Shown here one piece after another: positions 3,778 through 27,714 of a stretch of 38,187 nucleotides of DNA. This DNA is from an uncultured Geobacter sp. (GTDB lineage: Bacteria > Desulfobacterota > Desulfuromonadia > Geobacterales > CAIOGM01): contig CAIOGM010000065.1 of NCBI GenBank assembly GCA_903857795.1, positions 1-38,187 on the forward strand, given 5' to 3'. Positions within the stretch are counted from its first letter, which is position 1. The number at the start of each line of letters is the position of its first letter. The translations under genes and the position numbers were made by a program. Below the pieces are notes generated by a model, which searched no databases, was not told the origin of the DNA, and worked only from the letters and a program-made list of their open reading frames with translations.

Positions 3778-5163
3778 TCAGATCCCATGTTTCTTCATCA
3801 GGTCGTAGAGGGTCGGACGGCTGACCCCCAGGGTATCCGCGGCCTTGGCGATGTTCCCCCCCTGGGTCCGGATGGCGGAGAGGATCATGTCCCGCTCCAG
3901 GGCGTCACGGGCGTCCTTGAGGGTCCCCAGATCCATGATCTCGGGGAGCGACGGGGTATTGACCGGCATGGAGGCGAAACCGAGATCATCCGGTTCGATC
4001 AGCTGCCCGCTCACCATGAGCACGGCGCGCTGCACCTTGTTCTCCAGCTCCCGGACATTCCCCGGCCAGGAGTAGGCGGAGATGTACTCCTCGGCTTCGG
4101 GACTGTACCCCCGCACCTTCTTATTGAAATCGCCGGAAAACTTGCGGAGGAAGAGATTCGCCAGGAGGAGCATGTCTTCGCCGCGGCTCCTCAGCGGCGG
4201 CAATTCTATGTTCACCACCCCGATCCGGTAGAAGAGATCCTCCCTGAACCGCCCCTCCTCCATCGCCTTGGAGATGTCGATGTTGGTGGCGGCGATGATC
4301 CGGACATCGACGGAGATATCCTCCCGACCGCCGACCCTCTGGATCGACCGCTCCTGAAGAAACCGGAGCAGTTTAACCTGAAGCGCCCCCGGGATCTCAC
4401 CGATCTCGTCCAGGAAGAGGGTCCCCTTATGGGCGTACTCCACCTTGCCGAGAACCCGGACATGGGCGCCGGTGAAGGAGCCCTTCTCATGGCCGAAGAG
4501 TTCCGACTCCAGGAGGGTCTCGGGGATGGCGCCGCAGTTGATGGCGATGAACGGGGCGTGTTTCCTGAGGCTCATGTCATGGATCGCCCGGGCCACCAGC
4601 TCTTTTCCGGTGCCGCTCTCCCCCGAGACCATGACCGAGACGTCGGATTGCGCCACCTTGCGGATGGTGGTGAAGACCTGCTGCATGGCCGGACACTGAC
4701 CGATGATGCCGTTGTTCTCTCCGGTCCGGTCCACCACGGTATGCTGGAGTCGGCGGTTCTCGGCCTCGATCATCTGCAGATGAAAGGCCCTGCTGATGAT
4801 CACCTTCAGCTCATCCAGGTTCACCGGTTTCGGGTAGTAGTCATAGGCCCCCATCTGCACCGCCTTGAGGGCGTTTGCCCGGCCGTCGTTGCCGGTAATG
4901 ACGACGATCTTGGTGGCCGGCGCAATATGGAGCATCTCCTTGAGACAGCGGAACCCCTCGTCGGTCCCCTCTTCGTCGGGAGGAAGCCCCAGATCAAGCG
5001 TCACCACCAGAGGCTGGTGCCGCTTGAACAACGCCAGAGCCTCCGTACCGTCAGCGGCCAGAAGCACGGCATACTCCTTGCCGAGCCCCCACTTGAGCTG
5101 CTTCCGGATGTCTTCTATGTCATCGACAATCAGTATCTTATGTAAAGTCACGCCTTGCTCCAT
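3778..5163 (-). CDS. prsR: PEP-CTERM-type sigma54-dependent response regulator PrsR
   Basis: NtrC-class activator that would be phosphorylated by the adjacent kinase and drive sigma54 promoters, probably for exopolysaccharide or PEP-CTERM protein genes. The 461 residues show a receiver domain (acid pocket Asp14-Asp15, phospho-acceptor Asp57 in LDLGLPPDEEGTDEG, Lys112). An AAA+ domain follows with Walker A GESGTGKE (181-188), the sigma54-contact loop GSFTGA (228-233) in place of the usual GAFTGA, and Walker B GTLFLDE (248-254). A Fis-type helix-turn-helix ends the protein (GNIAKAADTLGVSRPTLY). The LDLGLPP motif with its insertion is characteristic of the PrsR subfamily. Its ATG shares the A of the prsK TGA (TGATG), so the two are coupled. 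No sigma54 site was recognised nearby. Confidence 0.9.
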   Translation of the reverse strand: MEQGVTLHKILIVDDIEDIRKQLKWGLGKEYAVLLAADGTEALALFKRHQPLVVTLDLGLPPDEEGTDEGFRCLKEMLHIAPATKIVVITGNDGRANALKAVQMGAYDYYPKPVNLDELKVIISRAFHLQMIEAENRRLQHTVVDRTGENNGIIGQCPAMQQVFTTIRKVAQSDVSVMVSGESGTGKELVARAIHDMSLRKHAPFIAINCGAIPETLLESELFGHEKGSFTGAHVRVLGKVEYAHKGTLFLDEIGEIPGALQVKLLRFLQERSIQRVGGREDISVDVRIIAATNIDISKAMEEGRFREDLFYRIGVVNIELPPLRSRGEDMLLLANLFLRKFSGDFNKKVRGYSPEAEEYISAYSWPGNVRELENKVQRAVLMVSGQLIEPDDLGFASMPVNTPSLPEIMDLGTLKDARDALERDMILSAIRTQGGNIAKAADTLGVSRPTLYDLMKKHGI

Positions 5164-12203: not shown

Positions 12204-13100
12204 ATGCTGACCATTCTGATCGATGAAAAAGAGCACTCCCGCCGGGTCGACAGCCTCCTGCGGAACCTTCTCCCCGGCGCCCCACTCTCCTACCTGCGGA
12301 AACTCCTGACATCAGGGCATATCCACCTCAACGGCGCAACGCCCGAAGGGGCAACGCTCCTGCGCCAGGGGGACCGGGTGACGATCAAGGAGAGCGCCCG
12401 GCTCACCGCACTCTACAAGGAGAACCGTTCGGGACTCGATATCGTCTTCGAAGACCAGTGGGTCATACTCTTCAACAAGCCGGGGGGGATGCCGATGCAC
12501 CGGGCCGCCGAAGTGGACGACCGGAATCTGGTGGATGTGGGGACTCTGCTCCAGAAGGGACGCGGCGAGGAGGGGAAACTGCGGCCGGTAAACCGGCTGG
12601 ACCGGGGGACCTCCGGCGTGGTGATCCTGGCCAAATCTCCCAGCGCGGCCGGGATGTTCGGCCGGTTCGTCAAGGAGGAGGGGCTGGACAAACTCTACCT
12701 GGCCGTGGTCGCCGGTGAGCTCTCCGGCAGGGGAAGGATCGATGAACCGCTGGGGGGGAAAGAGGCGTCCACCCTCTACCGGGTTCTCTGTTCCGGCAAC
12801 GGCATGGCGGTGGTGGCGCTGGCCCCGGTGACCGGCCGGATGCACCAGATCCGCCAGCACCTGACCCTCATCGGTCACCCGGTCATGGGGGATCTCCGCT
12901 ACAAGGGGTATCCGCTCCCCACGAGCTTTCCCGGATTCGCCCTCCACTCCTTCCGGACCGCCTTCACCCATCCGGCCACGGGGAACCTGGAGACCGTCTG
13001 CGCCCCCCTCCCCATCCCGTTTCAGGAGCTGATCGCCACCTGTGACCGGGAGGCATTCGCCCTCCTCTATCCCGCCCTCGTCGATCTCACCCTGAACTGA
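12204..13100 (+). CDS. RluA-family RNA pseudouridine synthase
   Basis: Converts uridine to pseudouridine in rRNA or tRNA. An N-terminal S4-like RNA-binding region covers about residues 10-65 (RRVDSLLRNLL, YLRKLLTSGHIHLNG). The catalytic domain has NRLDRGTSGVVILAK, where the Asp after Arg-Leu is the invariant catalytic residue (NRLDRGTSG in place of the common HRLDxxTSG), and GRMHQIRQHL, the second RluA signature. The preferred ATG at 12204 has a purine-rich AAAGAGAG just before it. An ATG at 12171 in the same frame lacks a ribosome site. Length (298 residues) is normal. Whether it is RluC, RluD or another member cannot be told from motifs alone. Confidence 0.9.
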   Translation: MLTILIDEKEHSRRVDSLLRNLLPGAPLSYLRKLLTSGHIHLNGATPEGATLLRQGDRVTIKESARLTALYKENRSGLDIVFEDQWVILFNKPGGMPMHRAAEVDDRNLVDVGTLLQKGRGEEGKLRPVNRLDRGTSGVVILAKSPSAAGMFGRFVKEEGLDKLYLAVVAGELSGRGRIDEPLGGKEASTLYRVLCSGNGMAVVALAPVTGRMHQIRQHLTLIGHPVMGDLRYKGYPLPTSFPGFALHSFRTAFTHPATGNLETVCAPLPIPFQELIATCDREAFALLYPALVDLTLN

Positions 13101-13140
13101 GAAGAGGCAGCAAGCCTGGTCGGGCGCGGCAAGGCAAGTC

Positions 13141-13484
13141 GGGCGCGGCAAGCGGCGTGGTAAAATCCGGGCGCGGCAAGCAGCGCCCCTACAATTTTGT
13201 TCTCCGTACCAGCAGGTTTCCCGTAGGGGCGCCGCTTGCTGCGCCCGATTTCCCTGCACCCGATTTATCCCGCAACCTGGGCGCGGCAAGCGGCGTGGTA
13301 AAATCCGGGCGCGGCAAGTCGGGCGCCCCTACAATTTTGTTCTCCGTACCAGCAGGTTTCCCGTAGGGGCGCCGCTTGCTGCGCCCGATTTCCCGCACCC
13401 GATTTCCCTGCACCCGATTTATCCCGCAACCAGGGCGCGGCAAGCGGCGTGGTAAAAGCTGGGCGCGGCAAGCGGCGCCCCTAC
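13141..13484. repeat. Tandem palindromic repeat between convergent genes (about 2.4 units)
   Basis: This fills the 380-base gene-free stretch 13101-13480. Unit 1 is 13141-13278 (138 bp), unit 2 is 13279-13432 (154 bp, with a small internal duplication), and a partial third unit is 13433-13484. Each full unit starts GGGCGCGGCAAGCGGCGTGG and contains an inverted repeat. In unit 1 the arms are 13169-13192 and 13223-13246 (22 of 24 bases pair) around a 30-nt spacer; in unit 2 they are 13307-13332 and 13363-13386. The spacer and right arm are identical in both units. The stems could act as a two-way terminator. The last arm runs into the acs coding end and supplies its stop. Short open frames here are translated repeat, not genes. 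Confidence 0.9.
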
Positions 13485-15109
13485 TCTTCCAGGGTGGAGA
13501 TGTCTCCCAGATCGGTGCCGAGGTACATCGCCTTCAATACCCGGCGCATGATCTTGCCGCTCTTGTTCTTGGGGATCCGTTCCAGCACCCGGACCTCCTG
13601 GGGGGTGGCGATGGAGGAGACCTTGTTGGAGATGTAGAGCCTGATCTTCAACTCCAATGAGGTCGAATACAGTACCCCCTCATGCAGGGCGATGAAGGCC
13701 ACCACCTTCTCGAAGAGGAGCTCGTCGGGGGCGCCGATGACCCCGGATTCGGCGATCTCGGGGATCTCCAGGAGGGCGCTCTCCACCTCGAAGGGACTCA
13801 GCAGGTGCCCGGCAGTATTGATGACATCGTCGCTTCTCCCCATGAACCAGTAGTGGCCGTCCCCGTCCCGCCTGGCCGTATCCCCGGTGTAGTACCACCC
13901 ATCCCGGAACTTGCTCTCATAGGCGCTCTCGTTGTTGAGATAGGTGGCGAACATGGAGGGCCACCCCGCCTTCACACAGAGATTCCCCTGCACGCCATCG
14001 GGGAGCGGGACGCCGTCATCGCCCAGGATCGCCGGCTGGATGCCGGGGATAGGGGTCCCCATGGAACCGGGGCGCAGCTCCACCCCGGGGCGGTTGCAGA
14101 TCATGATGGCCCCGGTCTCGGTCTGGAACCAGGTGTCGTAGATCTCACGCCCCAGGAGCCGCCGGGACCAGTGGATCACCTCGGGGTTGAGCGGCTCCCC
14201 GACACTGTAGATATGGCGGAGCCGGGAGGGGTCAAACTTTCGGTAGAGGTCGTCGGGCTCCCGCATGAGCATCCTTAGAGCCGTAGGAGCCGAATACCAG
14301 ACGGTGACCCCCTCCTTCTCCAGCAGGGAGAACCAGACGTCGGCGGCGTACCCGCCGGCGTAGTGGAGCTGGGTGACGCCGAGAGCCCAGGGGCCGATGA
14401 TGCCGTAGGAGGTTCCGGTGACCCACCCCTGATCGGCGGTGCACCAGAAGAGGTCGTCGGATTTCAGGTCGAGGACCTCCGCCGTGGTGCGGCTCTGGGA
14501 GATGATGCTCCGGTGGTGGTGGAGCACCCCTTTTGGCTTGCCGGTGGAGCCGGAAGTGTAGTGGAGCACCGAGGGGGTCTCCGGGCCGGTGGGCGCGACA
14601 ACGAATGAGTCGGACGCCTCGGCCATGAGCCGCTGGTAGCTGAGGACGCCGTCGCCGAGATGCTCGTCGCTGTCGATCAGGATGATATACTCCAGCCCCG
14701 GGAGGCGGGCCCTGATCCGCTCGATCTTTTTCAGAAAGTGTTTTTTGGTGATGATGCCGCGGGCCCGGGAGTCGCCCAGCCGGTCCAGGAGCGCCTCATC
14801 GCCGAAGTTGGCGAAGAGGGTCCCGCAGACGACCCGGGCCTTCAGGCTCCCCAGGAAGGCGAAGAACTGCTCGGTGGACTTGGGGAGGAAGGTGAAGAAG
14901 ATCTCCCCCGGCTGGAAGCCGAGCCCGGTCAGGACGTTGGCGAACCGGTTGGAGAGGAGATCCAGATCCCTGAACGTATAGTCGGTCCGCTCCAGGTGTG
15001 CCGAGATCCAGCGCATGGCTATCTTGTCGCCGAGACCGGCATCGCACTGGGCCGTGCTGCAGAGGTGACCGATGTTGAACTGGTTGCCCAGTGATTCATA
15101 GGTATGCAT
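13481..15109 (-). CDS. Acetyl-CoA synthetase, AMP-forming (AcsA-like)
   Basis: ANL-superfamily enzyme that would activate acetate (or a small acyl acid) with ATP and CoA. Motifs in the 542-residue product are the phosphate loop YTSGSTGKPKG (184-194), the core TETG (330-333), the hinge region with YYTGDTA and GRSDDVI, and the C-terminal catalytic Lys519 in KNKSGKIMRR, the site usually acetylated for control. The ATG at 15109 is preferred because GGGGAG stands just upstream; longer starts at 15127 and 15133 lack one. It lies 20 bp after a heptosyltransferase gene and closes the LPS gene run, although a role in LPS is not implied. Its TAG lies inside a palindromic repeat arm. Substrate is inferred, not proven. 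Confidence 0.88.
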   Translation of the reverse strand: MHTYESLGNQFNIGHLCSTAQCDAGLGDKIAMRWISAHLERTDYTFRDLDLLSNRFANVLTGLGFQPGEIFFTFLPKSTEQFFAFLGSLKARVVCGTLFANFGDEALLDRLGDSRARGIITKKHFLKKIERIRARLPGLEYIILIDSDEHLGDGVLSYQRLMAEASDSFVVAPTGPETPSVLHYTSGSTGKPKGVLHHHRSIISQSRTTAEVLDLKSDDLFWCTADQGWVTGTSYGIIGPWALGVTQLHYAGGYAADVWFSLLEKEGVTVWYSAPTALRMLMREPDDLYRKFDPSRLRHIYSVGEPLNPEVIHWSRRLLGREIYDTWFQTETGAIMICNRPGVELRPGSMGTPIPGIQPAILGDDGVPLPDGVQGNLCVKAGWPSMFATYLNNESAYESKFRDGWYYTGDTARRDGDGHYWFMGRSDDVINTAGHLLSPFEVESALLEIPEIAESGVIGAPDELLFEKVVAFIALHEGVLYSTSLELKIRLYISNKVSSIATPQEVRVLERIPKNKSGKIMRRVLKAMYLGTDLGDISTLEE

Positions 15110-15129
15110 GTGCTCTCCCCTTTTCATGA

Positions 15130-16146
15130 TCAACAGCTCTCGTCACTCTTCCCGATCCTCTCCATGACCGCCAGATACACCTCGTCCACGGTAATTTTCT
15201 CCATGCACTCCAGATAGACGGCATTACGGCACTTCCTGTCGTTACAGGGAACGCAGGCGACCTCAGTATGCCGGAGCACCCGATGCCCGTCCCCCACCGG
15301 CCCCGTACGCTCCGGATCGATGGCGCCAAACAGGGCGACGACCGGCGTCTTGACCGCGGTGGCCAGGTGGAGAGGGCCGGTATCGCCGCTGACCAGCAGG
15401 TGGCAGCTGGCCAGAATCGCTCCCAGTTGCCCGATGGAGAGCGCCCCCACCAGGTCCAGACAGGGACGCCGGAGCAGCGCCTGCAGTTCATCGGCCAGGT
15501 CGCGCTCCATCTCTCCGCCGATGAGGAGTACCCGGATACCGTCATCGGCCAACCGGTCGGCCACTCCGGCAAACTGCCGGGGACTCCAGCATTTGATCCG
15601 GTTGCTCGCCCCCAGATTCAACGCGACGATTGTGTGCCCCAGGGCGCCGTGATCATCCAGGAACGATCGCGCCCAGGTCATATCCCTGGCGCCGATGTAG
15701 AACTCCAGCTCCGGGCCATCATGGGGGATCCGGAGTGGCGCAACTGTCTTGAAGTGATCTTCTACCGCATGGATGACCCTGTTACGGGTTTTATGATAGA
15801 TGAGGAGCCGGCAGGGAAATGCGGCGGAAGCAAGGAGCCAGGTTTTCAGGTTGCTCCGCTGAAAATTGATGACCAGGTCATAGCGTCCCTGTTTCAGCAG
15901 CTGCCGAAGGGTCCAGAGCCCCCGCAGGGTACGGTGTTCATTCCACCGGTCATAGACAATGGTTCCATCCACATTGGGATTGTACCGGAACAGCTCCCGG
16001 GATGCAGTTGATCCCACGAGAACGGTAACCTTCGCCTCAGGGAACTGCTCCTTCAACCCGCGCAGTACCGGGGTCAGGTGGAGCAGGTCCCCCATGGCGC
16101 CCGGCTTGATGATGAGAATGCGGTGGTAACTGTCGATGCTTCTCAC
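15130..16146 (-). CDS. GT9 heptosyltransferase-like glycosyltransferase
   Basis: Cytoplasmic-face GT-B enzyme of the ADP-heptose:LPS heptosyltransferase family, likely adding a heptose to the core. The 338-residue product has the N-terminal KPGAMGDLLHLTPVL, matching the family pattern of an acceptor-site Gly-Asp near the start, and the donor-site motif SGDTGPLHLA. A C-terminal cysteine cluster (CVPCNDRKC and a later Cys) is frequent in this family. The start is GTG at 16146 with AGGA seven bases upstream. One of three GT9 genes in the block. Heptosyltransferase III or a core variant is possible. Confidence 0.85.
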   Translation of the reverse strand: MRSIDSYHRILIIKPGAMGDLLHLTPVLRGLKEQFPEAKVTVLVGSTASRELFRYNPNVDGTIVYDRWNEHRTLRGLWTLRQLLKQGRYDLVINFQRSNLKTWLLASAAFPCRLLIYHKTRNRVIHAVEDHFKTVAPLRIPHDGPELEFYIGARDMTWARSFLDDHGALGHTIVALNLGASNRIKCWSPRQFAGVADRLADDGIRVLLIGGEMERDLADELQALLRRPCLDLVGALSIGQLGAILASCHLLVSGDTGPLHLATAVKTPVVALFGAIDPERTGPVGDGHRVLRHTEVACVPCNDRKCRNAVYLECMEKITVDEVYLAVMERIGKSDESC

Positions 16147-16173
16147 ATTAATATCCTGTCATGCAAGCCACAA

Positions 16174-18225
16174 TCACTTCCCTATCACTCTCCTGAAGAG
16201 CTTCCTCAGCACGTTTTTCTCGAAGCGCCAAAGTGCTCTTCTCACCCGAAATTTCAGATACTCCGATGGAGGGAAATTATCTCTCAAAATCTGCTCAAAA
16301 TCTTTCTGGAATTCAAGATCAAGACCAATGGCGCTTATGCCGCCGGTATCTTCGTAGATGGCCACAAGGAGCGGCAGATACACGAAGCGAAACGTTTTGT
16401 CGTTGAAGCAACGGATATTAAGATGATAGTCTGCCGCAATCCGGTAGCGCAAATCATAAGAGTACTCGGCGAAAACCCTCTTGGGATAGAAGGTCGCAGG
16501 GTGCGGGATGCTCCTCTTCATCAGGTCGTAGCTGCTGAATTTACCGTCATAGAGCTTATGCCGGTGCGGCATATAGACATCACCGTAATAAATCCCGCTC
16601 TCCTGATTCAGATATCCCGACACCTTCTGCAGAACATCGAGCATGAGATCACCGCTGTTCAAAAAAACCAGCCAGTCGCCATTCGCTACCCTGGCTCCCT
16701 TGTTCATGGCGTCATAGATGCCGCTGTCGGGTTCACTCACCCAATAATCAAGCAGGCCATCATATCCTTTGATTACATCCACTGTCCCGTCACTGGAGCA
16801 GCCATCGATAAGGATGTATTCCACGTTATCATAGCTCTGCTGCAGGACGCTCCTGATGGTTCTTTCAAGATGACCCTCTCCGTTGCTGACAACGGTGACA
16901 ACAGAGATCAGCGGCCTCCCGGGAAACGACCTTTTGGCAAGCCCCCTGCGGCGCAATCCGCCTGCGCTGCAGTTGGGGGTCAAACCATCCACTTCCCCGA
17001 GAGAATCAGCAACCACGAGACGCCTCGTGGTCGCGTGGTTCCGGTCAAGACAGATGAAATCGGGGTTCTGTCCTGTCATCGTCGCGCCAGACTCCACCGG
17101 GGTACTCTCCGTTTCTCCATCCGCATCATAATCTCCGCCGGTTAAACCGGCAATGGACTGTTCCAGCAGATCCACGGCTCGCGCCCAGGTAAAGCGGTGA
17201 ATGGCCTTGTGGGCCGTCACTGCCAGCCGCACTCTCAGCTCGTCATCCCTGATCAATCTGAGGATGTTGGCCGCAAGCGCTTCGCAATCCCGCGGAGGGG
17301 TCATAAGGGCCGTCACATCCGGAGTGGCGAATTCACGATATCCCCCGATATCCGTGAGACAAAGCGCCGCCCCACACTGCGCAGCCTCAGCCGCAGTCAG
17401 CCCCCACCCCTCAACCCAGCTCGATCCGACAAACAGGGCAGCTTCGTTATAGATCTGTCTCAGCCGTACCTGTTTCGGCAGTTGCTCATACGTTATCCAT
17501 GACGGCAAACCATCGGGAACATCCGGAACACCGAAAAGGGTCGCCGTAAGCGCGGGATCGCACCCCCTGGCCAACGAAAGTGCGGCAAGACCATCCCTGG
17601 AGCCTTTAAACTCCTTGTCGTGATAAAGCATCACAACGTGGTGGGGATCCCTCATCCTGACGGGATTATCAAGCTCGAACGCCGTAAAATCAAGCCCGTT
17701 GGGAATGTAGAGCGCCTCTTCGTTCATCTCTTCGGCAATCCGCTGCAACCAGCGGGAGATGACGATTTTTTTCAGGGGAAGCCGCCAACTTGCCATGACC
17801 CGGCGTTCGAGTGCCCCGGCATAGCACGATTCCAACCCCTGGATAAGGTAGAACTTTCTTCCTTTTCCCGCAGCATATCCTGCAAGCCACTCAGCGGTCT
17901 GCCAGGCGGAGGCGATTACGATATCGGCATCGGGAATCCATCGGGGATGAAGTGTCGGCGTCCATTTCATTCTCACCCGGGGGTCAATCCGAAACCATCC
18001 TTCAGGGCGGAATCCACCTTTGAAACCGAGCATTCGACTACAGTATTTGAGCAATAGTCCCAGAATGCGGACAGTTCCGGTGGCGTCATCAGGCAGAGAA
18101 GGAGGCGCATGAATGACGGTTACCTCATGCCCCCGCCCGACGAGAGCATTGGCGTATTCATAGACCACCTTGAACCCGCCGATCGGCTGATGTCCGGAGC
18201 GCGGGAGAAGAAAGGTGATCTTCAT
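16174..18225 (-). CDS. Two-domain glycosyltransferase: GT4-like N-terminus fused to GT2 C-terminus
   Basis: A single uninterrupted frame encodes two different glycosyltransferase folds. Residues 1 to about 360 are GT-B/GT4-like, with the donor-site segment SSWVEGWGLTAAEAAQCG. About 75 residues of low-complexity linker follow. Residues about 438-683 are GT-A/GT2: ISVVTVVSNGEGHLERTI, LIDGCSSDGT and DSGIYDAMNKGARVANGDW, resembling WcaE-like colanic acid transferases. The start at 18225 (MKITFLLPRSG) fits GT4 N-termini; an ATG at 18243 is possible, and neither has a clear ribosome site. An internal ATG at 17079 with GGAG 12 bases before it might give a separate GT2 product. Base composition looks less GC-rich than in the lipid A genes, which suggests transfer. 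It probably adds two sugars in sequence; substrates are unknown. Confidence 0.82.
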   Translation of the reverse strand: MKITFLLPRSGHQPIGGFKVVYEYANALVGRGHEVTVIHAPPSLPDDATGTVRILGLLLKYCSRMLGFKGGFRPEGWFRIDPRVRMKWTPTLHPRWIPDADIVIASAWQTAEWLAGYAAGKGRKFYLIQGLESCYAGALERRVMASWRLPLKKIVISRWLQRIAEEMNEEALYIPNGLDFTAFELDNPVRMRDPHHVVMLYHDKEFKGSRDGLAALSLARGCDPALTATLFGVPDVPDGLPSWITYEQLPKQVRLRQIYNEAALFVGSSWVEGWGLTAAEAAQCGAALCLTDIGGYREFATPDVTALMTPPRDCEALAANILRLIRDDELRVRLAVTAHKAIHRFTWARAVDLLEQSIAGLTGGDYDADGETESTPVESGATMTGQNPDFICLDRNHATTRRLVVADSLGEVDGLTPNCSAGGLRRRGLAKRSFPGRPLISVVTVVSNGEGHLERTIRSVLQQSYDNVEYILIDGCSSDGTVDVIKGYDGLLDYWVSEPDSGIYDAMNKGARVANGDWLVFLNSGDLMLDVLQKVSGYLNQESGIYYGDVYMPHRHKLYDGKFSSYDLMKRSIPHPATFYPKRVFAEYSYDLRYRIAADYHLNIRCFNDKTFRFVYLPLLVAIYEDTGGISAIGLDLEFQKDFEQILRDNFPPSEYLKFRVRRALWRFEKNVLRKLFRRVIGK

Positions 18226-18282
18226 CACTGCTGTCGGCTGCATTTCATCAAGTCGGCCTTGTTACCCATATGAGTTTCCTAA

Positions 18283-19389
18283 TCATAGGTCAAGCTCCCC
18301 TTCGGCTATTTTCCTGAAGAGCTCCAACCCGCGTTCCACCACCTGGTCCATGTTCATGTAACGATATTCGGCAAGTCTCCCTACAAAATGGACATTGTGC
18401 AGTTTTTGCGCCTCCTCAGAATACAAGCGGTATAGCTCCCGGGACTCCTCCATGGGCATCGGGTAGTACGGGTCACCGTCGTTCTGGGGATATTCATAGC
18501 AGATCGTCGTCCCGGGTGACTGCTGGAAGTAGAACTGCTTTGACTCGGTAATCCTCGTATAGTCATGGTCGTTGGGATAGTTGACCACTGCCGCGTTCTG
18601 GAATTGCGGGACATTCAGATGAACAAAGTCGAAGCGGAGGCTCCGGTAGGGAAGTTTTCCATAACGATAATCGAAGAACTCATCGATGGGGCCGGTGTAG
18701 ATGACTCCCTTGCAGGATATTTCCCCCAGCACGTCCCGGTAATCTGTATTGAGAAGGAGCTCGATATTGGGATGATCCAACATCCTCTCGAACATCCGCG
18801 TATAGCCGTGGGTCGGAATCCCCTGATAGGTATCCGAGAAGTAACGCGTGTCCCGATTGAAGCGGACGGGGAGGCGCCGGGTCACTTCGGCGGCGAGCTC
18901 TTCCGGATAAACACCCCACTGCTTCTTCGTATAATTATGAAAGAAGAGTTCGTAAAGCTCCTCACCCACCTGGCTTACCACCACGTCCCGGGAATTCCGC
19001 ACAGCATCCATCGGCACCCGTACCATTTCCAGATACTGCTCCATCTCCTCGACGGTAAAGGTCCGGTCGTAGAGCTGCTCCATCGTCTCCAGGCTGATGG
19101 GAAGGTAGAGCTCCTTTTCCCGGACTCTGGCGATGACCCTGTGAACATAGTCGTTTCATTGGGTAAAGCGGTTCAGGTAGTTCCAGACATCTTCCGAGTT
19201 GGTATGAAAGATGTGAGGGCCGTACTTCTGAATGAGAATGCCGTGCTCATCATAATGGTCGTAGCTGTTCCCCCCCATATGGTTGCGCTTGTCCAGGATG
19301 AGGACTTTTTTCCCCAGGGAGGCGGCGATCCTTTCGGCGACGGTCGCTCCGGCGAGTCCGGCGCCTATGACCAGATACTCCACATTCAT
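18283..19389 (-). pseudogene. glf: UDP-galactopyranose mutase with one in-frame TGA (Trp codon to stop)
   Basis: Would convert UDP-galactopyranose to UDP-galactofuranose. The frame from ATG 19389 to TAG 18283 spans 368 codons, normal mutase length, but codon 78 is TGA (19158-19156), following FTQ and preceding NDYVHRV. The family has Trp there (pattern FTEW), so a single G-to-A change of TGG explains it. The N-terminal part has the FAD motif GAGLAGA and QKYGPHIFHTN. After the stop the same frame continues with FHNYTKKQWG, RFNRDTRYFSDTYQG, YTGPIDEFFDYRYGKLPYRS and GRLAEYRYMNMD. No other lesion is seen. The truncated 77-residue product would lack the active site. Alternatives are a sequence error or readthrough; I see no convincing SECIS hairpin for selenocysteine. 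Confidence 0.88.
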
Positions 19390-19410
19390 TCGCCGCTCCT
19401 CCTCTCCTCG

Positions 19411-20364
19411 TCACGAGGTCCTTTTCAGAACAGCAGCATCCCCGAGTACCCAGGCTCTTTTTTCCCTGCTCCGCCCCGCAAAAACCTCCGGCAACTTGCT
19501 TAATGCGCCACAGAATGCGGCATAGTAGGCAATGTCCAGCCAGAGGAAGCTGACCGCCAGACGGAAGAAGGTGTGGAGAAGATTTGACAGTATGAAACCC
19601 GGATCGGAAAGATTAATCCAATGGAACAGGAAGCGGTTCCGGAAGTAGATGGTCCTCTTCTTACGCCGTTTCACCTTACCGATGGTGGCGCTGGAGTAAT
19701 GATGAACCGTCGTACCCGGCTCATAGAGATTGCGCCAGCCACGCTTCCACGCCCGATAGGAGAGATCCACATCCTCGAACAGGTAGGGGGTGTATATTTC
19801 ACTGTATCCGCCCAGCGCCCGGAATTTTGCCAGGTCATAGGCAACACAGGCGCCGATACAGTAGAAATTTTCCCGACAACCGGAACGGTCATCGATCGGG
19901 GCAAAACCCCCTTTAAGAAACCCCTTGCCGTACATCCCGTAGACAATCCCCTGATTGCGCCCCTCCCGCTCGGCCAGGATCGCCGGGGTCACCGCAAAGA
20001 CACTCTCATCGGCAAAGTGCGGAACCACCGCCGTGAAGAGCGTGTCGCTCACCCCCACGTCGCTATTGATGCAGAAGACGATGGGATAGCGCGCCTCACG
20101 AAATCCCGCATTGCAGCTCCGGGAGAAACCGCTGTTGGCGTCGTTGATGAGAAGTCGGGCCTGGGGAAACCGGTCACGAAGCAGCCGACAGCTCTCATCG
20201 GTACTGGCGTCGTCCACGACGATCAGCTCCGACTCGCCGCTCCATCGCTGGAGCGCGGATATGACCGAGGGAAGATTTTCCGCCAGGAGCTGCTCGCCGT
20301 TGTAATTGGGAATGACGACGCTAATGCCCCCCCTCAACCCGCTTCCCCCTGAAACTAGCGCCAT
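19411..20364 (-). CDS. GT2 glycosyltransferase with hydrophobic C-terminus
   Basis: GT-A inverting transferase for surface polysaccharide. In the 317-residue product the nucleotide-sugar site shows ISVVIPNYNG (14-23), VVDDAS with Asp51-Asp52, NSGFSRSCNAGF, and a metal-site NSD near 100-102. The acceptor-side FEDVDLSYRAWKRGW is typical of rhamnosyl- or galactofuranosyl-type GT2 enzymes. A hydrophobic C-terminal stretch (about 250-290) suggests membrane association. The ATG at 20364 is used because AGAGG precedes it; a TTG at 20385 is also in frame. It lies immediately upstream of the mutase gene, so a galactofuranosyl donor is an attractive but unproven idea. Confidence 0.85.
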   Translation of the reverse strand: MALVSGGSGLRGGISVVIPNYNGEQLLAENLPSVISALQRWSGESELIVVDDASTDESCRLLRDRFPQARLLINDANSGFSRSCNAGFREARYPIVFCINSDVGVSDTLFTAVVPHFADESVFAVTPAILAEREGRNQGIVYGMYGKGFLKGGFAPIDDRSGCRENFYCIGACVAYDLAKFRALGGYSEIYTPYLFEDVDLSYRAWKRGWRNLYEPGTTVHHYSSATIGKVKRRKKRTIYFRNRFLFHWINLSDPGFILSNLLHTFFRLAVSFLWLDIAYYAAFCGALSKLPEVFAGRSREKRAWVLGDAAVLKRTS

Positions 20365-20396
20365 AACCAGATCCCTCTCCCCCAAAAATGATGCGA

Positions 20397-21491
20397 CTAC
20401 GGCGGCAATCCTCTGAACAATGTCAGATACGCAGCCGTCATCGCCTGGACGGTGTAGCGGGAGCGGACCAGCTCCATCCCCTCTCTCCCCATGGCAAAGC
20501 GCCGCTCATGATCCCGGAGCAGTTGGATCAGCGCCGCGGCAAACTCTGCCGCTCCCCCATGCACCAAAACCCCGGCGCTACTCCCTCGAAAGATGTCCAC
20601 CTGCCCCCCCTCATCGTACGCGACAACGGGAGTCCCGTTGGCGAGGCTCTCCAGATGGACCAGCCCGAACCCTTCATTGCGGAACGTACTCACCGTGAGG
20701 TCAAAATCGAAGTAGAGCTCTCGGAGACGCTCATGGGGAACCTTACCGGTCATGACCAGGTTATCCTCGACCCCCAGCGCCTGGGCTCTCTCCCCGATCG
20801 CCCCGGTCAACCCGGGATCGGTATCATCCCCCACCAGAGCCACTCGCACGGCCGGGAAGCTCCCTTTGACCAGGGCGACGACCTCCATCAGCTCGGTCTG
20901 GTTCTTGAAGAAGGCGCCCACCATGCCGATGAGCGGGAACCCGAGCCCCGTGAAATAGCGGCGGGGGCGCTCTCTGGTAAACTTTTCAGGGGTGACGTCG
21001 CCGTCGATCCGGATACCGTTGGAGATCACCCACAGGGGAGGAGTCAGGGCTCGGTGGGCCGACAGGAGCCGATCCCGCACATGACCCGAGATGCAGACGA
21101 CCCCATCGACCCGGTTCAGAAACGGCTGCTTCCGGGAGGTGGCGGTATGATAGCAGATGACGAATTTTCCCCTACGCCTGAAGGGAAAGGCCAGTTTCCA
21201 CGCAAGGAACGTGGCGGTGAGGTCATGTTCCCTCGTCACCATGATGATGTCGAAGGACTCCCTCCGCAACAGCACCGCGGTTTCGGTTATGGAGCGCCAG
21301 AGGCTCTTCTTCCGGTCGGTGACCGCGGTCACGGAGTAGCCGAGCCTCTTGAAGTTTCCCTCGGAGAGTGATCCGGACCGACAGAGCAGCCGGGTGCAAC
21401 AGCCTGAGGCCTCAAGATGGGGTATCAGCTCTTTCAGGTGCTCCTGCCCCCCGCCCCACCCCTTGTCGTTATTGACCACCAGAAGCTTCAT
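20397..21491 (-). CDS. GT4 (group 1) glycosyltransferase
   Basis: Retaining GT-B transferase, 364 residues. The N-terminal acceptor domain begins KLLVVNNDKGWGGGQEHLKELIPHL, with the Gly-rich loop common in group 1 enzymes. The C-terminal donor domain has VISNGIRID, LIGMVGAFFKNQ and the EX7E-like region FRNEGFGLVHLESLANGTPVVAYDEGG. The ATG at 21491 is separated from the previous stop (21495) by only three bases, so it is part of the operon and probably translated by coupling. The sugar transferred cannot be read from sequence. Confidence 0.86.
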   Translation of the reverse strand: MKLLVVNNDKGWGGGQEHLKELIPHLEASGCCTRLLCRSGSLSEGNFKRLGYSVTAVTDRKKSLWRSITETAVLLRRESFDIIMVTREHDLTATFLAWKLAFPFRRRGKFVICYHTATSRKQPFLNRVDGVVCISGHVRDRLLSAHRALTPPLWVISNGIRIDGDVTPEKFTRERPRRYFTGLGFPLIGMVGAFFKNQTELMEVVALVKGSFPAVRVALVGDDTDPGLTGAIGERAQALGVEDNLVMTGKVPHERLRELYFDFDLTVSTFRNEGFGLVHLESLANGTPVVAYDEGGQVDIFRGSSAGVLVHGGAAEFAAALIQLLRDHERRFAMGREGMELVRSRYTVQAMTAAYLTLFRGLPP

Positions 21492-21494
21492 TAG

Positions 21495-22334
21495 TCACAC
21501 CTCTGCCATCGCGCTCACGATACCATTCCGGCAGCAGCTCTCACCACGGGCAATCCTCTGCCGCAAGATCGTCATGTTGTGGTTATGCTTTTCATTGCCG
21601 GTACCCCAGGACGCCCTGTGCCAGAGATGAAAGACGATGGCCAGGCCGCGGACCGATTTCACCCTGCCGCCGCTGTTGATCACTCGAATCCCCAGATCGT
21701 TATCCTCCACCGACCCGTCGAGAAAATCCTCATCGCAGCCATTGATGGCGTAAAACAGATCGCGGTGGATACTGAAATTGCACCCCCAGATGCCGTCGTC
21801 CATAATCCGGTCACTCTTGAGCAGTCGCCTCAAGAGTCGGGAGCGGATCTGAATCGCCTCTTCCACCTTGCGGCTTCCATGAAACAGCGAATTCACCAGT
21901 ACCCTCACTGTAAGCCGGGTCAATGAAGTCCCCTTACGGAGCAGGCGCTCGGTAAACTCTTGCCCCAGTTCGACCCGCTTGCCACCGAGAATGGCTAACG
22001 GTTCTGCGGCGCGACAGTGTGAGCGAACAAAATCATGGTGAGCCATACAATCCCCGTCAATCACGACAAGATACTCTCCCGACGATCGACGCACGGTCTC
22101 ATTAATGATCTGTGGCTTGCGAAAGCCGCAATTCTCCTGCCAGACATGATGAACGGCAAAGGGGCAGCCCGTGCTGTTCGTGAACCGTTCCACCACGTGG
22201 CGGGTCGCGGCATCACTGCCGTCGTCGGCGATGAGCACCTCAGCGGGCAGCAGGCTCTGCCGGTTCAGGCTTTCCAGACAGAGGGCCAGCTCGGTTGGCC
22301 GGTTATACGTTGGAACGATTACCGATACTTTCAC
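21495..22334 (-). CDS. GT2 glycosyltransferase with GT7C-like C-terminal region
   Basis: The 279-residue product starts VSVIVPTYNRPTELALCL, with LIADDGSD as nucleotide site and VIDGDCMAH as the metal DXD-type motif. The C-terminal segment GCNFSIHRDLFYAINGCDE followed by EDNDLGIRVINSGG resembles the acceptor-binding part of galactosyl- or chondroitin-type transferases. The start is GTG at 22334, chosen because GGGGAG stands eight bases before it and the family N-terminus begins there; a TTG at 22406 overlapping the previous stop is the alternative. About 70 bases upstream then remain non-coding within the operon. Likely adds a hexose in the core or O-chain. Confidence 0.84.
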   Translation of the reverse strand: MKVSVIVPTYNRPTELALCLESLNRQSLLPAEVLIADDGSDAATRHVVERFTNSTGCPFAVHHVWQENCGFRKPQIINETVRRSSGEYLVVIDGDCMAHHDFVRSHCRAAEPLAILGGKRVELGQEFTERLLRKGTSLTRLTVRVLVNSLFHGSRKVEEAIQIRSRLLRRLLKSDRIMDDGIWGCNFSIHRDLFYAINGCDEDFLDGSVEDNDLGIRVINSGGRVKSVRGLAIVFHLWHRASWGTGNEKHNHNMTILRQRIARGESCCRNGIVSAMAEV

Positions 22335-22402
22335 GCAAAAATCTCCCCTCTTAGCCGGATGCCGCCGGGAAGATAAGCCCATCACCATCAGCTTGTTATT
22401 GA

Positions 22403-23416
22403 TCAAGCCACTCCATCCCTGGCACCCTGAACGGCCTGCAGCCCCAACATGAGACAGAGCAGTGGATAGACATCCTCAGGCCCATCGGGCCTCAGCAATA
22501 CCGTATTCAGCTCATCGAAGAGCGGATAGCGGATATCGTCCCGGGCGTAGATTCCCACCGACGGAATCCCCGCCAGATTGGCAAGGTGAAGCGGTCCGGT
22601 GTCGTTCCCCAGATACCCCGCGGCGTCGACCATGAGTTGAAAGAGCTGCCAGAGAGAGAGCCGCCCCCGCAGGTCCAGGAACCCCTCCAGTTGCGGAACC
22701 GGCGGCTCCCGGTCAAGACCGATGAACACGACCGTGCAGTGCTGGCGGCGAAGACGTTCGGCCAGGAGCAGAAAATGTTCCGGGTTCCAGCGTCGGTCGG
22801 CGTTGTTCTTCACGCTCCCATAGGCGGCCTCCATACAGCAGAGCACGTAGGGTGCGGAAACAAGGGGCGCCCCCGTGAAGCGGGACCGGTCAACGGGGAG
22901 AGAGTCACGGGAAAATGAAAATGACTGTTTTACCTGGGCAGGAGTGTAACCCAGGGCCTCGACCACGCCGAACATCGCTATGCTGTAGTCGTGGAGATTA
23001 CAGTTCGTGGCCAGAAAATCCCTCAGCTCCGGCGCCGGCCCTTCCCCTCTGAGCGAGGAGAGATCATGGGTAAAACGCGCCAACGGCTTGTTCCGCTGAC
23101 GAAGTCCATAGCTGCTTCGGCAATGGAACCCGAAATTTTTCGAGGTTGCGATGAGAAAGAACCCCTTATCCGGCGGGCTCAACCACGACTTAAACCTGGC
23201 GCCCCACCCCATCCGGAGCACTCCCGCCACTCCCACCGCTGCAAACAGCGGAGCCAGCGGGGTGGCTGAGTAGGCCGTGACACTCCGGCCCACCGGCCCA
23301 TGGTTTTCGATGAGATTACGGAGGCAGACGAGCAGGGGGAGAGAGAGGATGGCGTCCCCTACCCGGTTTGGCAGAACAATGGCGATCCGATCATTGCCGG
23401 GGCGAGGACTCTTCAA
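22403..23416 (-). CDS. GT9 heptosyltransferase-like protein
   Basis: The 337-residue product carries the GT9 pattern: N-terminal IAIVLPNRVGDAILSLPLLV and donor-site GNDTGPLHLANLAGIPSVGIY. It lacks the C-terminal cysteine cluster of the other two GT9 proteins here. The only start consistent with the family is TTG at 23416, which overlaps the TGA of the preceding gene as TTGA; a weak AGG lies five bases before it. Translation is therefore probably coupled. Divergent central sequence makes the exact acceptor uncertain. Confidence 0.82.
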   Translation of the reverse strand: MKSPRPGNDRIAIVLPNRVGDAILSLPLLVCLRNLIENHGPVGRSVTAYSATPLAPLFAAVGVAGVLRMGWGARFKSWLSPPDKGFFLIATSKNFGFHCRSSYGLRQRNKPLARFTHDLSSLRGEGPAPELRDFLATNCNLHDYSIAMFGVVEALGYTPAQVKQSFSFSRDSLPVDRSRFTGAPLVSAPYVLCCMEAAYGSVKNNADRRWNPEHFLLLAERLRRQHCTVVFIGLDREPPVPQLEGFLDLRGRLSLWQLFQLMVDAAGYLGNDTGPLHLANLAGIPSVGIYARDDIRYPLFDELNTVLLRPDGPEDVYPLLCLMLGLQAVQGARDGVA

Positions 23417-24189
23417 TCGAACCTGCCCAGCCGCTGCTGCAGCTCATACAGTTTCAGGTACTTGAGGAACACGCCGTAGGACTCCATGACGCAGATGACA
23501 TAGCCGGGGAGACCGTCCAGGATGCCGAGCCTGATCAGGTACCGGATAAAAAAGGTCGCCACCGGCCGAACGGTGAGATGAAAGAGCGTGGCCCGCTTTC
23601 CCTTGTGGAAATGATCCAGGGCCGTGCGGGAGGCGTAGCGGTTCTTCGTTTCGCTGAAGTGATTGAGATCCCGGTAGATGAAATGGGTGAGGTCACCGCT
23701 GAAATGACCCAGCTCGCCTGGGACCTGGATCTTGTCATGGGGCTCGTACCCTCCCCACCTGCAGCGGTCCTTGCGAAAGAGCCGGATATTCCGGTCCGGA
23801 TACCATCCCGAATGGTTGATCCATCTCTTCATGAACCAGTGCCGGCGCGGCATGTCGAAGGCGTCACACGGGGTGTTCTCCAGGTCGATGGAGAGAATTT
23901 CATCCCGCAGCTCCGGAGTAACCCGCTCATCGGAGTCGATATGAAAAATCCAGAGATTGCGCGCCTGTTCGGTGGCGACAACGCTCTGGGGGATGTGCCC
24001 TTCCCACCGGTTGAGAATGACCCGATCGGTGTACTCCCGAGCTATTTCAACGGTCCGATCGGTGCTGAAGGCGTCCACGACGACGATTTCGTCGGCCCAC
24101 GAAACACTCTCCAGGCACTCCCGAATATTCAACTCTTCGTTGAAAGTCCTGACTACCGCGGAAATGCCGGTTCTCCTCTTGCCACTCAT
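23413..24189 (-). CDS. GT2 core glycosyltransferase, WaaE/KdtX-like
   Basis: The 258-residue product resembles the WaaE/KdtX family that adds glucose or a similar hexose to the first heptose of the LPS core. Visible motifs are ISAVVRTFNEELNIRECL, SWADEIVVVDAFSTD, the metal site HIDSDERV, and WYPDRNIRLFRK. The C-terminal third has hydrophobic and basic stretches consistent with membrane contact. The ATG at 24189 forms ATGA with the preceding stop and has GGAGG four bases upstream; longer in-frame starts are not needed. It sits between two GT9 genes, which supports a core role. Confidence 0.86.
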   Translation of the reverse strand: MSGKRRTGISAVVRTFNEELNIRECLESVSWADEIVVVDAFSTDRTVEIAREYTDRVILNRWEGHIPQSVVATEQARNLWIFHIDSDERVTPELRDEILSIDLENTPCDAFDMPRRHWFMKRWINHSGWYPDRNIRLFRKDRCRWGGYEPHDKIQVPGELGHFSGDLTHFIYRDLNHFSETKNRYASRTALDHFHKGKRATLFHLTVRPVATFFIRYLIRLGILDGLPGYVICVMESYGVFLKYLKLYELQQRLGRFD

Positions 24190-25262
24190 CGGACCTCCGT
24201 CTCCTTGATCAACTCCTCGCACGCCTGACAGACCTGCTCCACCGAGATCGCCATGATGCATTCCGGTCTCCCCTCACCGGCCGGCTCACACTGGGTAAAA
24301 TACTTCTGCCGGCAGGGGGAGCAGGGGAACGCGGTATGAATCACCCTCGTCCGGCTCCCCCACGGCCCGAAGCGATCAGGGGAGGTGGGGCCGAACAGCG
24401 CCAGGAGCGGAACTCCGGCGGATGCGGCCAGGTGCATCACGCCGCTGTCGTTGCCGAGAAAGAGCGCGGAGCGGTGCAGGAGCGCCAGGGTTGTCCGGAG
24501 ATCGCACCCCCCCACAAGATCGCAGCACCCGTGAGGAAAGAGATGCCGCCACGGCTCGAACTCCTTGCGATCGCCTCCGGCGCCCAGCAGGAGAGGGGTC
24601 ATGCCGTACCGTTCCATGAGCTGCCGCGCCACTTCGGCAAACCGCGCCATGGGCCAGCTCTTTTGATAGATCGACCCGAACGGATGGAGCGCCAGGAGCC
24701 TGGCGTCTCCCCCCACCCCATGGCTCTGGAGCAGTTCATCGGCCTTACGCGCCTCATCAGCGGAGATCCAGGATTCCAGATAATCGTCCGTCACCGGAAC
24801 TCCGTCGGCCCGGAGCAGATCGAGGAAGCTTACGACCTCATGCTGTTCCGGCCGGTAGGGAACCGCCCTGGTCAGCATGAAGCGCCGCCCCTCGGTGTCG
24901 AAGCCGACCCTCTCCCGTGCACCGGAGAGGAGGGCGATGAGGGCGCTGGAAAAAGAGCGCTTCAGGACGTAGGCCTTGTCGAACTTTTTGGCCCGCAGCT
25001 CCCGGATAAAGGAGAGCTTCGCCCCCAGAGTCCGGTGCCCCCCCCGGCTGTCGGCATGGATGGTGGCCGGATCCCAGTAGATCAGCTCGTCCACATAGGG
25101 GATCCCCTTGACCACGTCCGAGGAGCCCGGCGCAACCACCCAGGCGATATGGGCCTCCGGCTCCGCCCGCCGGAGGTTCCGGAAAAAGGGAACCGTCAGG
25201 ATGGTATCGCCGATGAAGCGGTAGCGCAGGACAAGGATTTTTTTTCGCTGATTCAAGCTCAC
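24186..25262 (-). CDS. waaF: Lipopolysaccharide heptosyltransferase II-like (GT9)
   Basis: Transfers L-glycero-D-manno-heptose to the inner core from ADP-heptose. The 358-residue product has ILVLRYRFIGDTILTVPFFR at the N-terminus, LLALHPFGSIYQKSWP, and the donor signature GNDSGVMHLAASAGVPLLALFGPTSPDRFGPWG, which is close to WaaF. A cysteine-rich C-terminus (CSPCRQKYFTQC and a later Cys) is a common addition in this subfamily. The start is GTG at 25262, overlapping the lpxK TGA as GTGA. First of the glycosyltransferase block after lpxK, consistent with inner-core work. WaaF versus another GT9 member is not certain. Confidence 0.8.
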   Translation of the reverse strand: MSLNQRKKILVLRYRFIGDTILTVPFFRNLRRAEPEAHIAWVVAPGSSDVVKGIPYVDELIYWDPATIHADSRGGHRTLGAKLSFIRELRAKKFDKAYVLKRSFSSALIALLSGARERVGFDTEGRRFMLTRAVPYRPEQHEVVSFLDLLRADGVPVTDDYLESWISADEARKADELLQSHGVGGDARLLALHPFGSIYQKSWPMARFAEVARQLMERYGMTPLLLGAGGDRKEFEPWRHLFPHGCCDLVGGCDLRTTLALLHRSALFLGNDSGVMHLAASAGVPLLALFGPTSPDRFGPWGSRTRVIHTAFPCSPCRQKYFTQCEPAGEGRPECIMAISVEQVCQACEELIKETEVR

Positions 25263-26353
25263 TGGCTCTTCCCGGTCTCCTGAAACACTCTCTCCACCTC
25301 TGCCTCCAGCACTCCAGGATCAGCCAGGAGCAGCTCCAGCTGCGCCACCCAGATCTTCCCCAGCTGTCTCCGGTGCCGCTCCAGCTTGACCGCATCCTTG
25401 GCCGTGGTGACAAGACAGGTCGCCCCGGTGCTCCTGAAACTGCGCCGGATCCCGGCCACCGTCCGGTCATCATAGACGGCGTGATCCGGCAGGGCCAGCG
25501 AGCCGACCAGCTCCACCCCCGCTTCGACAAGCCCGGAGAAGAAGCGATCCGGATGGGCAACCCCGGCAAAGGCCAGGACCAGCTCCCCATACAGGGCGGA
25601 AAGTGGCCGACTCTCGCCTCCATCCAGGGGAACTATCCCGCTCAGGTGGTGACCGGCACAGAGGTGCGGCACTCCCGGAGCCGCCACAGGGGGGATCTTC
25701 TCCCCGTCACCGCAGCGGGTCATGACGATGAGCTCCGCCCGCCCCTTGGCCGACACCGGTTCCCGAAGGAGTCCCGCCGGCAGGGTCCAGCCGTTGCCGA
25801 AGGGGTTGCGGCAATCGAGGAGCAAGACATTCAGGTCCCGGTGCAGCCGGAGATGCTGGAAGCCGTCATCCAGAAGGAAGCAGTCGGGATGCAGCTCCAG
25901 CTGAGCCAGCAGACCCGCCGCGTACCGGTCGGCGCCTACCACTACCATCAGACCGGGCAGGTCACGAGCCAGGAGATACGGTTCGTCCCCGGCCTCCGCC
26001 GCCGACATGAAGAGAGTCTCGCCATCGGAGACGATCCGCGGCCTCCCCTTATGGCTGCCGCCGTACCCCCGGGAGAGGACCACCACCCGTCTTCCGGTCG
26101 CCAGGAAATAGCGGGCGATGAGCGCGGTCATGGGGGTCTTCCCGGTCCCCCCCACCGCCAGGTTCCCCACCGATATGACCGGCCGGTTCAGCCGCCGGGT
26201 GCGGAGCAAGCGGACCCGGTAGCCCCATGCCCGGAGCCGCAGGAGCAGCGCATAGGGGAGAGAGAGAGGAACCAGGAGCGCCAGGAGCAGCCGGTCCATG
26301 CATCCGCGCCGTGTTCCCGAGGCCAGAGCCCGCCAGTACGCCTCACCCCTCAA
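25259..26353 (-). CDS. lpxK: Tetraacyldisaccharide 4'-kinase
   Basis: Phosphorylates the 4' position of the lipid A disaccharide at the inner face of the inner membrane. The 364 residues contain an N-terminal membrane-associated helix (LLLALLVPLSLPYALLLRL), the P-loop GNLAVGGTGKT (63-73), VVVLSRGYGG, and the conserved LLDDGFQHLRL. The family N-terminus (YWRALASGTRRG) lies before the first ATG (26299), so the start is probably TTG at 26353, which has AGGAG six bases upstream. Both the TTG and that AGGAG lie inside a heptanucleotide tandem array. A start at 26299 would remove conserved residues. Confidence 0.92.
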   Translation of the reverse strand: MRGEAYWRALASGTRRGCMDRLLLALLVPLSLPYALLLRLRAWGYRVRLLRTRRLNRPVISVGNLAVGGTGKTPMTALIARYFLATGRRVVVLSRGYGGSHKGRPRIVSDGETLFMSAAEAGDEPYLLARDLPGLMVVVGADRYAAGLLAQLELHPDCFLLDDGFQHLRLHRDLNVLLLDCRNPFGNGWTLPAGLLREPVSAKGRAELIVMTRCGDGEKIPPVAAPGVPHLCAGHHLSGIVPLDGGESRPLSALYGELVLAFAGVAHPDRFFSGLVEAGVELVGSLALPDHAVYDDRTVAGIRRSFRSTGATCLVTTAKDAVKLERHRRQLGKIWVAQLELLLADPGVLEAEVERVFQETGKSQ

Positions 26354-26403: not shown

Positions 26404-26407
26404 AGCC

Positions 26408-26431
26408 GGGCGCGGCAAGCGGCGCCCCTAC
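26408..26431. repeat. Palindromic-repeat arm at the waaA stop codon
   Basis: These 24 bases, running from GGGCGCGGCAAGCGG to CGCCCCTAC, equal the arm at 13461-13484 base for base. On the minus strand the GTAG at its end supplies the TAG stop of waaA. Between this arm and the heptad array only four bases remain. Confidence 0.85.
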
Positions 26432-27714
26432 GGCAAAAGCCGGTGGATGACCGCCATGTGCCGCTCCGTGGAACCGCCAAGACGCGCCATGAGTTCCAGG
26501 CCGTTGCGACTCATCTGCGATCTCTTGTCAGGATCGTCCAGTAATCTGCTGAAGGCGCCGCCCAGCTCCCGGCCGTCGGCCACCTGAATCCCCGCCCCGG
26601 CCTCCAGGACCAGGGTGCTGATCTCACGGAAATTGCTCATATGCGGCCCGAAGAGGAGCGGAACCCCCACGGAGGCCGGCTCCAGGAGGTTGTGGCCGCC
26701 GGTAGGGACCAGACTGCCGCCGACGAAGACCAGATCCGCCAGGGGGTAGAGGGCCATCAACTCCCCGACCCGGTCGACGACGAGCGCCTCGCCGGAGATG
26801 AAGGGGGTGTCACGCTCCTCCAGTCGGGAGCGGAGGGTCACGCCGAACCCCGCCTTACGCAGCAGCAGCGCCGCCTCGCCGGAGCGTTCCGGATGCCGGG
26901 GAACCAGCAGCAGGATCAGCTCCCGTCCGGCGTCCAGGAGCCCCCGGCAGGCAGTGATGACCGGTTCGTCTTCCCCCTGGTGAGTACTCCCCGCCACGAT
27001 GACCGTGGCGTCGGGGGGGATCAGGTAGCGGCGCCGGGCCTCGGCCCGCTCTTCGGGCGTGAGCAGCGTCACCGGCAGGTCGTATTTGAGGTTGTTGGTG
27101 ACGACGACCTGTTCCGGCCGCGCGCCGATGGCGATGATCCGGCGGGCGTCCTCGCCGCTCTGCATACACAAGGCGGTGAAGTTTGCCAGGACCGGGCGAA
27201 AGAACCAGGAGAGCCTGAGATAGCGGCCAAGGGAGCGGTCGGAGATCCGGCCGTTCACCAGGAGCGACGGAATCCCCAGGCTCTTGACCTCTTTCATGAA
27301 GTTGGGCCAGATCTCCGTCTCCACCACGATGACCAACTCGGGGCGGATGGTTCGGAGGAGGCGGCGGACGGCGAAAGCATAATCAAAGGGGAAATAGATA
27401 CAGAGTTCCGGCTCCTTCAGCTTCAGCGCCACCTCCCTGCCGGTCTCGGTCACGGTAGAGAGCACGATCCTCTTTTCCGGGTAGCGCGCCTTCAACGCCG
27501 TGAGCAGGGGCCGGGCCGCCAGGGTCTCCCCCACCGACACCGCATGGACCCAGATCGTCCCCCCCCCTGCCACCCGGGAGGTCTCGGCCACGGGGATGAA
27601 ACCGAACCGCTCGGCAAAAGCCGCCCGCCTCCCCCGGCTCACCGAGCGGTACAGGTGGTAGCAGACAACCCCGGGGAACGCCAGCAGCAGGAGAAGAGAG
27701 TAGATCATTGACAT
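26428..27714 (-). CDS. waaA: 3-deoxy-D-manno-octulosonic acid (Kdo) transferase
   Basis: Transfers Kdo from CMP-Kdo to lipid IVA at the inner membrane. The 428-residue product has an N-terminal membrane anchor (IYSLLLLLAFPGVVCYHLY), the catalytic base Glu63 in HAVSVGET (Glu60 in E. coli), ETEIWPN, NGRISDRS, AGSTHQGED and the GT-B donor motif GGSLVPTGGHNLLEPASVG. The ATG at 27714 is preferred with GAGGGGTGG seven bases before it; ATG 27708 is possible. The protein ends HRLLP and its TAG is the end of a dispersed repeat, so the last codons may have been altered by repeat insertion. Whether it adds one or more Kdo is not visible. Confidence 0.94.
   Translation of the reverse strand: MSMIYSLLLLLAFPGVVCYHLYRSVSRGRRAAFAERFGFIPVAETSRVAGGGTIWVHAVSVGETLAARPLLTALKARYPEKRIVLSTVTETGREVALKLKEPELCIYFPFDYAFAVRRLLRTIRPELVIVVETEIWPNFMKEVKSLGIPSLLVNGRISDRSLGRYLRLSWFFRPVLANFTALCMQSGEDARRIIAIGARPEQVVVTNNLKYDLPVTLLTPEERAEARRRYLIPPDATVIVAGSTHQGEDEPVITACRGLLDAGRELILLLVPRHPERSGEAALLLRKAGFGVTLRSRLEERDTPFISGEALVVDRVGELMALYPLADLVFVGGSLVPTGGHNLLEPASVGVPLLFGPHMSNFREISTLVLEAGAGIQVADGRELGGAFSRLLDDPDKRSQMSRNGLELMARLGGSTERHMAVIHRLLP

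Follow-up and report, generated by a model that had tools for sequence, protein, structure and literature searches.

A nonsense mutation has served in the laboratory as a tool for inactivating pamB, the glf homologue of Kingella (PMC12269835). In-frame stops are reported to be widespread in constrained bacterial genes, where they are often under purifying selection, and UGA in particular is a leaky stop at which tryptophan is inserted; for one B. subtilis UGA construct, a readthrough of 6% was found (PMC7918605). In E. coli, UGA is read by a tRNA-Trp that has a four-pair anticodon stem (PMC13092985). The glf gene of the uncultured Geobacter sp. described here has a single UGA in a frame that is otherwise complete. 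The reading that we favor, with a probability of about 0.6, is that this glf carries a recent, ordinary nonsense allele, so that the product would be 77 residues long and galactofuranose would be lost.

The window, that is, the whole stretch of 38,187 nucleotides that was analysed, contains on its minus strand a UDP-galactopyranose mutase (Glf) frame consisting of 368 codons and a terminal stop (Table 1). Glf enzymes interconvert UDP-Galp and UDP-Galf in an FAD-dependent reaction. The frame is not the uninterrupted one of a Glf gene. It has one interior stop, a TGA at codon 78, which directly follows the residues ...LNRFTQ. When this stop is read through, the translated product scores 396.3 bits against NCBIfam TIGR00031 (cut-off 303.75) and 262.8 bits against Pfam GLF, PF03275 (cut-off 26.3), and it can be aligned over its whole length with 3hdq, a UGM of solved structure (E 5e-129). 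Its best relatives, from Bacteroidota, Cyanobacteriota and other groups, are 58% identical. Because the homology is continuous on either side of the stop, the finding is not due to chance. This is the sole Glf gene found in the genome, whose assembly is rated 100% complete.

The codon lost to the stop was determined by aligning related mutases, as the preliminary description had suggested, using 95 independent homologues drawn from the relatives and from GTDB contigs. The aligned residue is Trp in 90 of these, encoded by TGG every time, Phe in four and Leu in one, and none of the 95 has a stop at the site. Nor were interior stops reported in the other Glf matches, which came from 97 relatives and 395 genomes of the phylum. 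Trp is thus the residue expected at codon 78 in the branch to which this glf belongs, with other large hydrophobic residues tolerated across the wider family. The preliminary description had been correct about the family, the site of the stop, the expected Trp and the lack of further damage (one stop in 368 codons). Its statement that Trp is usual in the family holds for most members, but the residue is not invariant.

Table 1. Position of glf, its parts and its surroundings in the window
Feature	Position	Strand	Remarks
Variable block of glycosyltransferases, flanked by AMP-binding enzyme and LpxK	13481..26353	-	Flanks conserved in genus, glf absent there
Downstream neighbor, fused GT4-GT2 glycosyltransferase, 689 aa, 54.7% GC	16174..18243	-	Intact single ORF
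glf frame	18283..19389	-	ATG at 19389; terminal TGA 18285-18283; one internal TGA
Longest ORF past internal stop, 266 aa	18283..19083	-	ATG at 19083
Premature TGA, codon 78	19156..19158	-	TGG in 90/95 homologues
N-terminal fragment, 77 codons, FAD-binding Rossmann part	19159..19389	-	Predicted translated product
Upstream neighbor, GT2 glycosyltransferase	19411..20385	-	Intact

The consequences that would follow for the cell can be laid out in order. Since UGA is a stop in this organism, translation of the single-copy gene, in which one premature UGA takes the place of the family's Trp codon, is predicted to yield the N-terminal fragment, and this fragment would be without the mutase domain. 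UDP-galactofuranose would then not be made, or would be made only in traces through the ordinary leakiness of UGA, by Trp readthrough. Any galactofuranose in the surface glycan would thereby be lost. The longest ORF past the stop is unlikely to supply an active enzyme, because its product would be missing the dinucleotide-binding N-terminus.

The window is a lipid A and LPS core region of the Gram-negative type. It encodes BamA, an OmpH/Skp-like protein, LpxD, FabZ-like and LpxA-like proteins, LpxB, an MsbA-like ABC transporter, KdtA and LpxK. Beyond LpxK are glycosyltransferases of the heptosyltransferase family and of GT2 and GT4, the glf gene, the fused GT4-GT2 protein and an AMP-binding enzyme. 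GC-rich palindromic repeats of the GTAGGGGCGCCGCTTGCTGCGCCC type, partly tandem and REP-like, are present at window positions 13098-13484 and 26404-26437; repeats of this type are also found in congeners and on several other contigs of this genome. The flanking genes (AMP-binding enzyme, LpxK, KdtA) are 69-89% identical in the three congeners, whereas the intervening glycosyltransferase block differs, and glf is absent from the three genomes. At 53.6%, the GC content of glf is below the 60-68% of the lipid A genes, and several neighbors of glf are likewise lower. Because the block is variable in the congeners and low in GC, and the nearest mutases come from Bacteroidota, Cyanobacteriota and others, it is best read as a putative surface-glycan cassette that is exchanged horizontally. 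The stop in glf is the only visible lesion in the cluster, all the remaining genes being open. The suggestion in the preliminary description that phages may have selected for the loss is speculative and finds no support in the window.

The age of the lesion was approached through the conservation of the rest of the gene. In a tree of 74 mutases filtered for redundancy, the length of the end branch of glf predicts 4.9 +/- 2.4 departures from 90%-conserved columns. Four are observed, so that there is no excess that would indicate relaxed constraint or further decay. A first count had given 10 departures against a median of 1, with the query at the top, but its set was biased to close hits of one cluster. 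The excess disappeared upon filtering for redundancy and using branch lengths, and relaxed selection was rejected. The absence of visible decay would fit residual function or a base error as well as a nonsense mutation of recent date. The lesion is probably recent, because nothing else in glf has decayed; weighing against the favored reading, however, an intact frame is equally expected from a leaky gene that still functions or from an error.

Part of the genome outside the window, about 330 kb, was scanned for comparison, though not exhaustively. One further clear single-nonsense case, and the sole one to survive homology checks, was found in this sample: a gene for a pilB/GspE-like ATPase (G000:C38:84238-86160, plus strand; locus L144, TAG at 4835). 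The TAG takes the place of a Lys codon, Lys being present both in the close homologues and in an intact paralogue with 86% identity (G000:C173:11024-12937). Interruptions were not widespread among some 350 genes sampled. The count of such genes is to be taken as a minimum, since a simple scan for adjacent ORFs picked up neither glf nor the pilB-like gene; a scan by codon score was confounded by antisense frames. These data show that glf is not unique in the assembly and that single-nonsense lesions of this sort belong to its background, and also that the lesions differ in kind.

An error in the sequence, the assembly or the population consensus is the main rival to a nonsense allele. The organism's glf would then be intact and the draft either wrong at one base or a mixture of strain alleles. 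The draft is in 179 contigs with a contamination of 1.8, the glf frame is otherwise perfect and normally constrained, and a second gene with a single nonsense codon turned up in the sampled part, all of which argue for an error; yet the rarity of interruptions in the sample indicates that the consensus is not generally poor, and we consider an error somewhat unlikely. Alternatively, glf may be leaky yet functional: a near-cognate Trp-tRNA would read the UGA inefficiently, and the small amount of wild-type enzyme that results might be a device for low expression. UGA is leaky and directs insertion of the very residue expected at codon 78, and the conserved columns are intact, but the stop occurs in no relative, leaving no signal of conservation, and there is no stimulatory structure, since the 40-61 nt on the 3' side of the UGA fold worse than their shuffles. 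Such a gene is improbable, and the specific form in which the cell tolerates the UGA as a leaky stop, a few per cent being suppressed by ordinary Trp-tRNA so that some wild-type mutase is made and galactofuranose in the surface glycan varies from cell to cell, is quite improbable. Of the causes named in the preliminary description, recent loss and sequence error fit best; programmed recoding is unsupported, given the lack of a SECIS-like hairpin, the Trp rather than Cys at the column, the rank of UGA as the commonest terminator and the presence of RF2.

Reassignment of UGA to Trp throughout the genome, or a strong opal suppressor, has a practically negligible chance, and the reassignment was rejected. 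TGA is the commonest terminator, ending 87 of 156 long ORFs and glf itself, and RF2 is present and intact. What leaves room for a suppressor is that neither a pattern search nor the Rfam tRNA model located a tRNA-Trp in the assembly whose anticodon and stem could be read; among those of the 36 tRNA matches that could be typed, none has a CCA or UCA anticodon. The gene secE, which often adjoins that for tRNA-Trp, was likewise not found in the assembly, and genes for tRNA-Tyr and tRNA-Thr lie at the extreme end of one contig (C86). Together these suggest that an assembly gap, at a repeat, is behind the missing tRNA-Trp and secE. Insertion of selenocysteine at codon 78 called for a test because the genome encodes tRNA-Sec, SelA and a SelD of the Sec type. 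The selD gene (G000:C61:20246-21169; locus L190, TGA at 1531) has one TGA within its frame, at the position where this enzyme is known to carry Sec or Cys, and 3' of it is a stable hairpin, with z of -1.4, -2.7 and -2.4 for 50, 61 and 40 nt when folded against shuffles. The selD TGA with its hairpin, tRNA-Sec and SelA show that the organism uses selenocysteine. The glf UGA, in contrast, has no SECIS-like hairpin on its 3' side, where 40-61 nt are less stable than shuffles (z +1.6, +1.4 and +1.0), and no Rfam SECIS match, and Cys is found at the codon 78 column in none of the 95 homologues. No redox function is known for this residue in the reaction that the mutase catalyzes. With neither a hairpin nor a Cys column, selenocysteine was rejected as hardly credible. 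A split gene, in which the fragments of 77 and 266 residues are made separately and act together, was also rejected and is very improbable: the second ORF does have an ATG, but it begins 25 codons past the stop and would leave conserved sequence untranslated, and no split Glf was seen among the 97 relatives and 395 phylum genomes.

If the nonsense allele is real, galactofuranose has disappeared recently from the surface glycan of one lineage through a single substitution, in a block of genes that varies within the genus. In other respects the stop in glf is a routine nonsense allele. Compared with known systems, the gene resembles bacterial Glf (TIGR00031, PF03275; solved structures 3hdq, 1i8t and 2bi7) in its whole-length homology, which on readthrough exceeds the curated cut-offs; it differs in the frame broken at codon 78 and in having best relatives only 58% identical. 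Like the Kingella galactan locus pamABCDE (PMC12269835), it places a glf homologue (pamB in Kingella) beside glycosyltransferases in a locus for an LPS glycan, although the neighbors here are different. With the single-stop pseudogenes and in-frame stops of bacteria (PMC7918605) it shares a frame that is constrained and, but for one stop, intact; that set, however, was limited to stops that recur in at least two genomes, and the glf stop is seen in one genome only. The remaining comparison is with selD of the same genome, which also has an in-frame TGA amid Sec machinery and from which glf differs in the missing hairpin and in the lack of Cys/Sec equivalence at the column. The pair forms a useful control, as within one genome with Sec machinery the two UGA codons are separable by downstream structure and by the residue in homologues.
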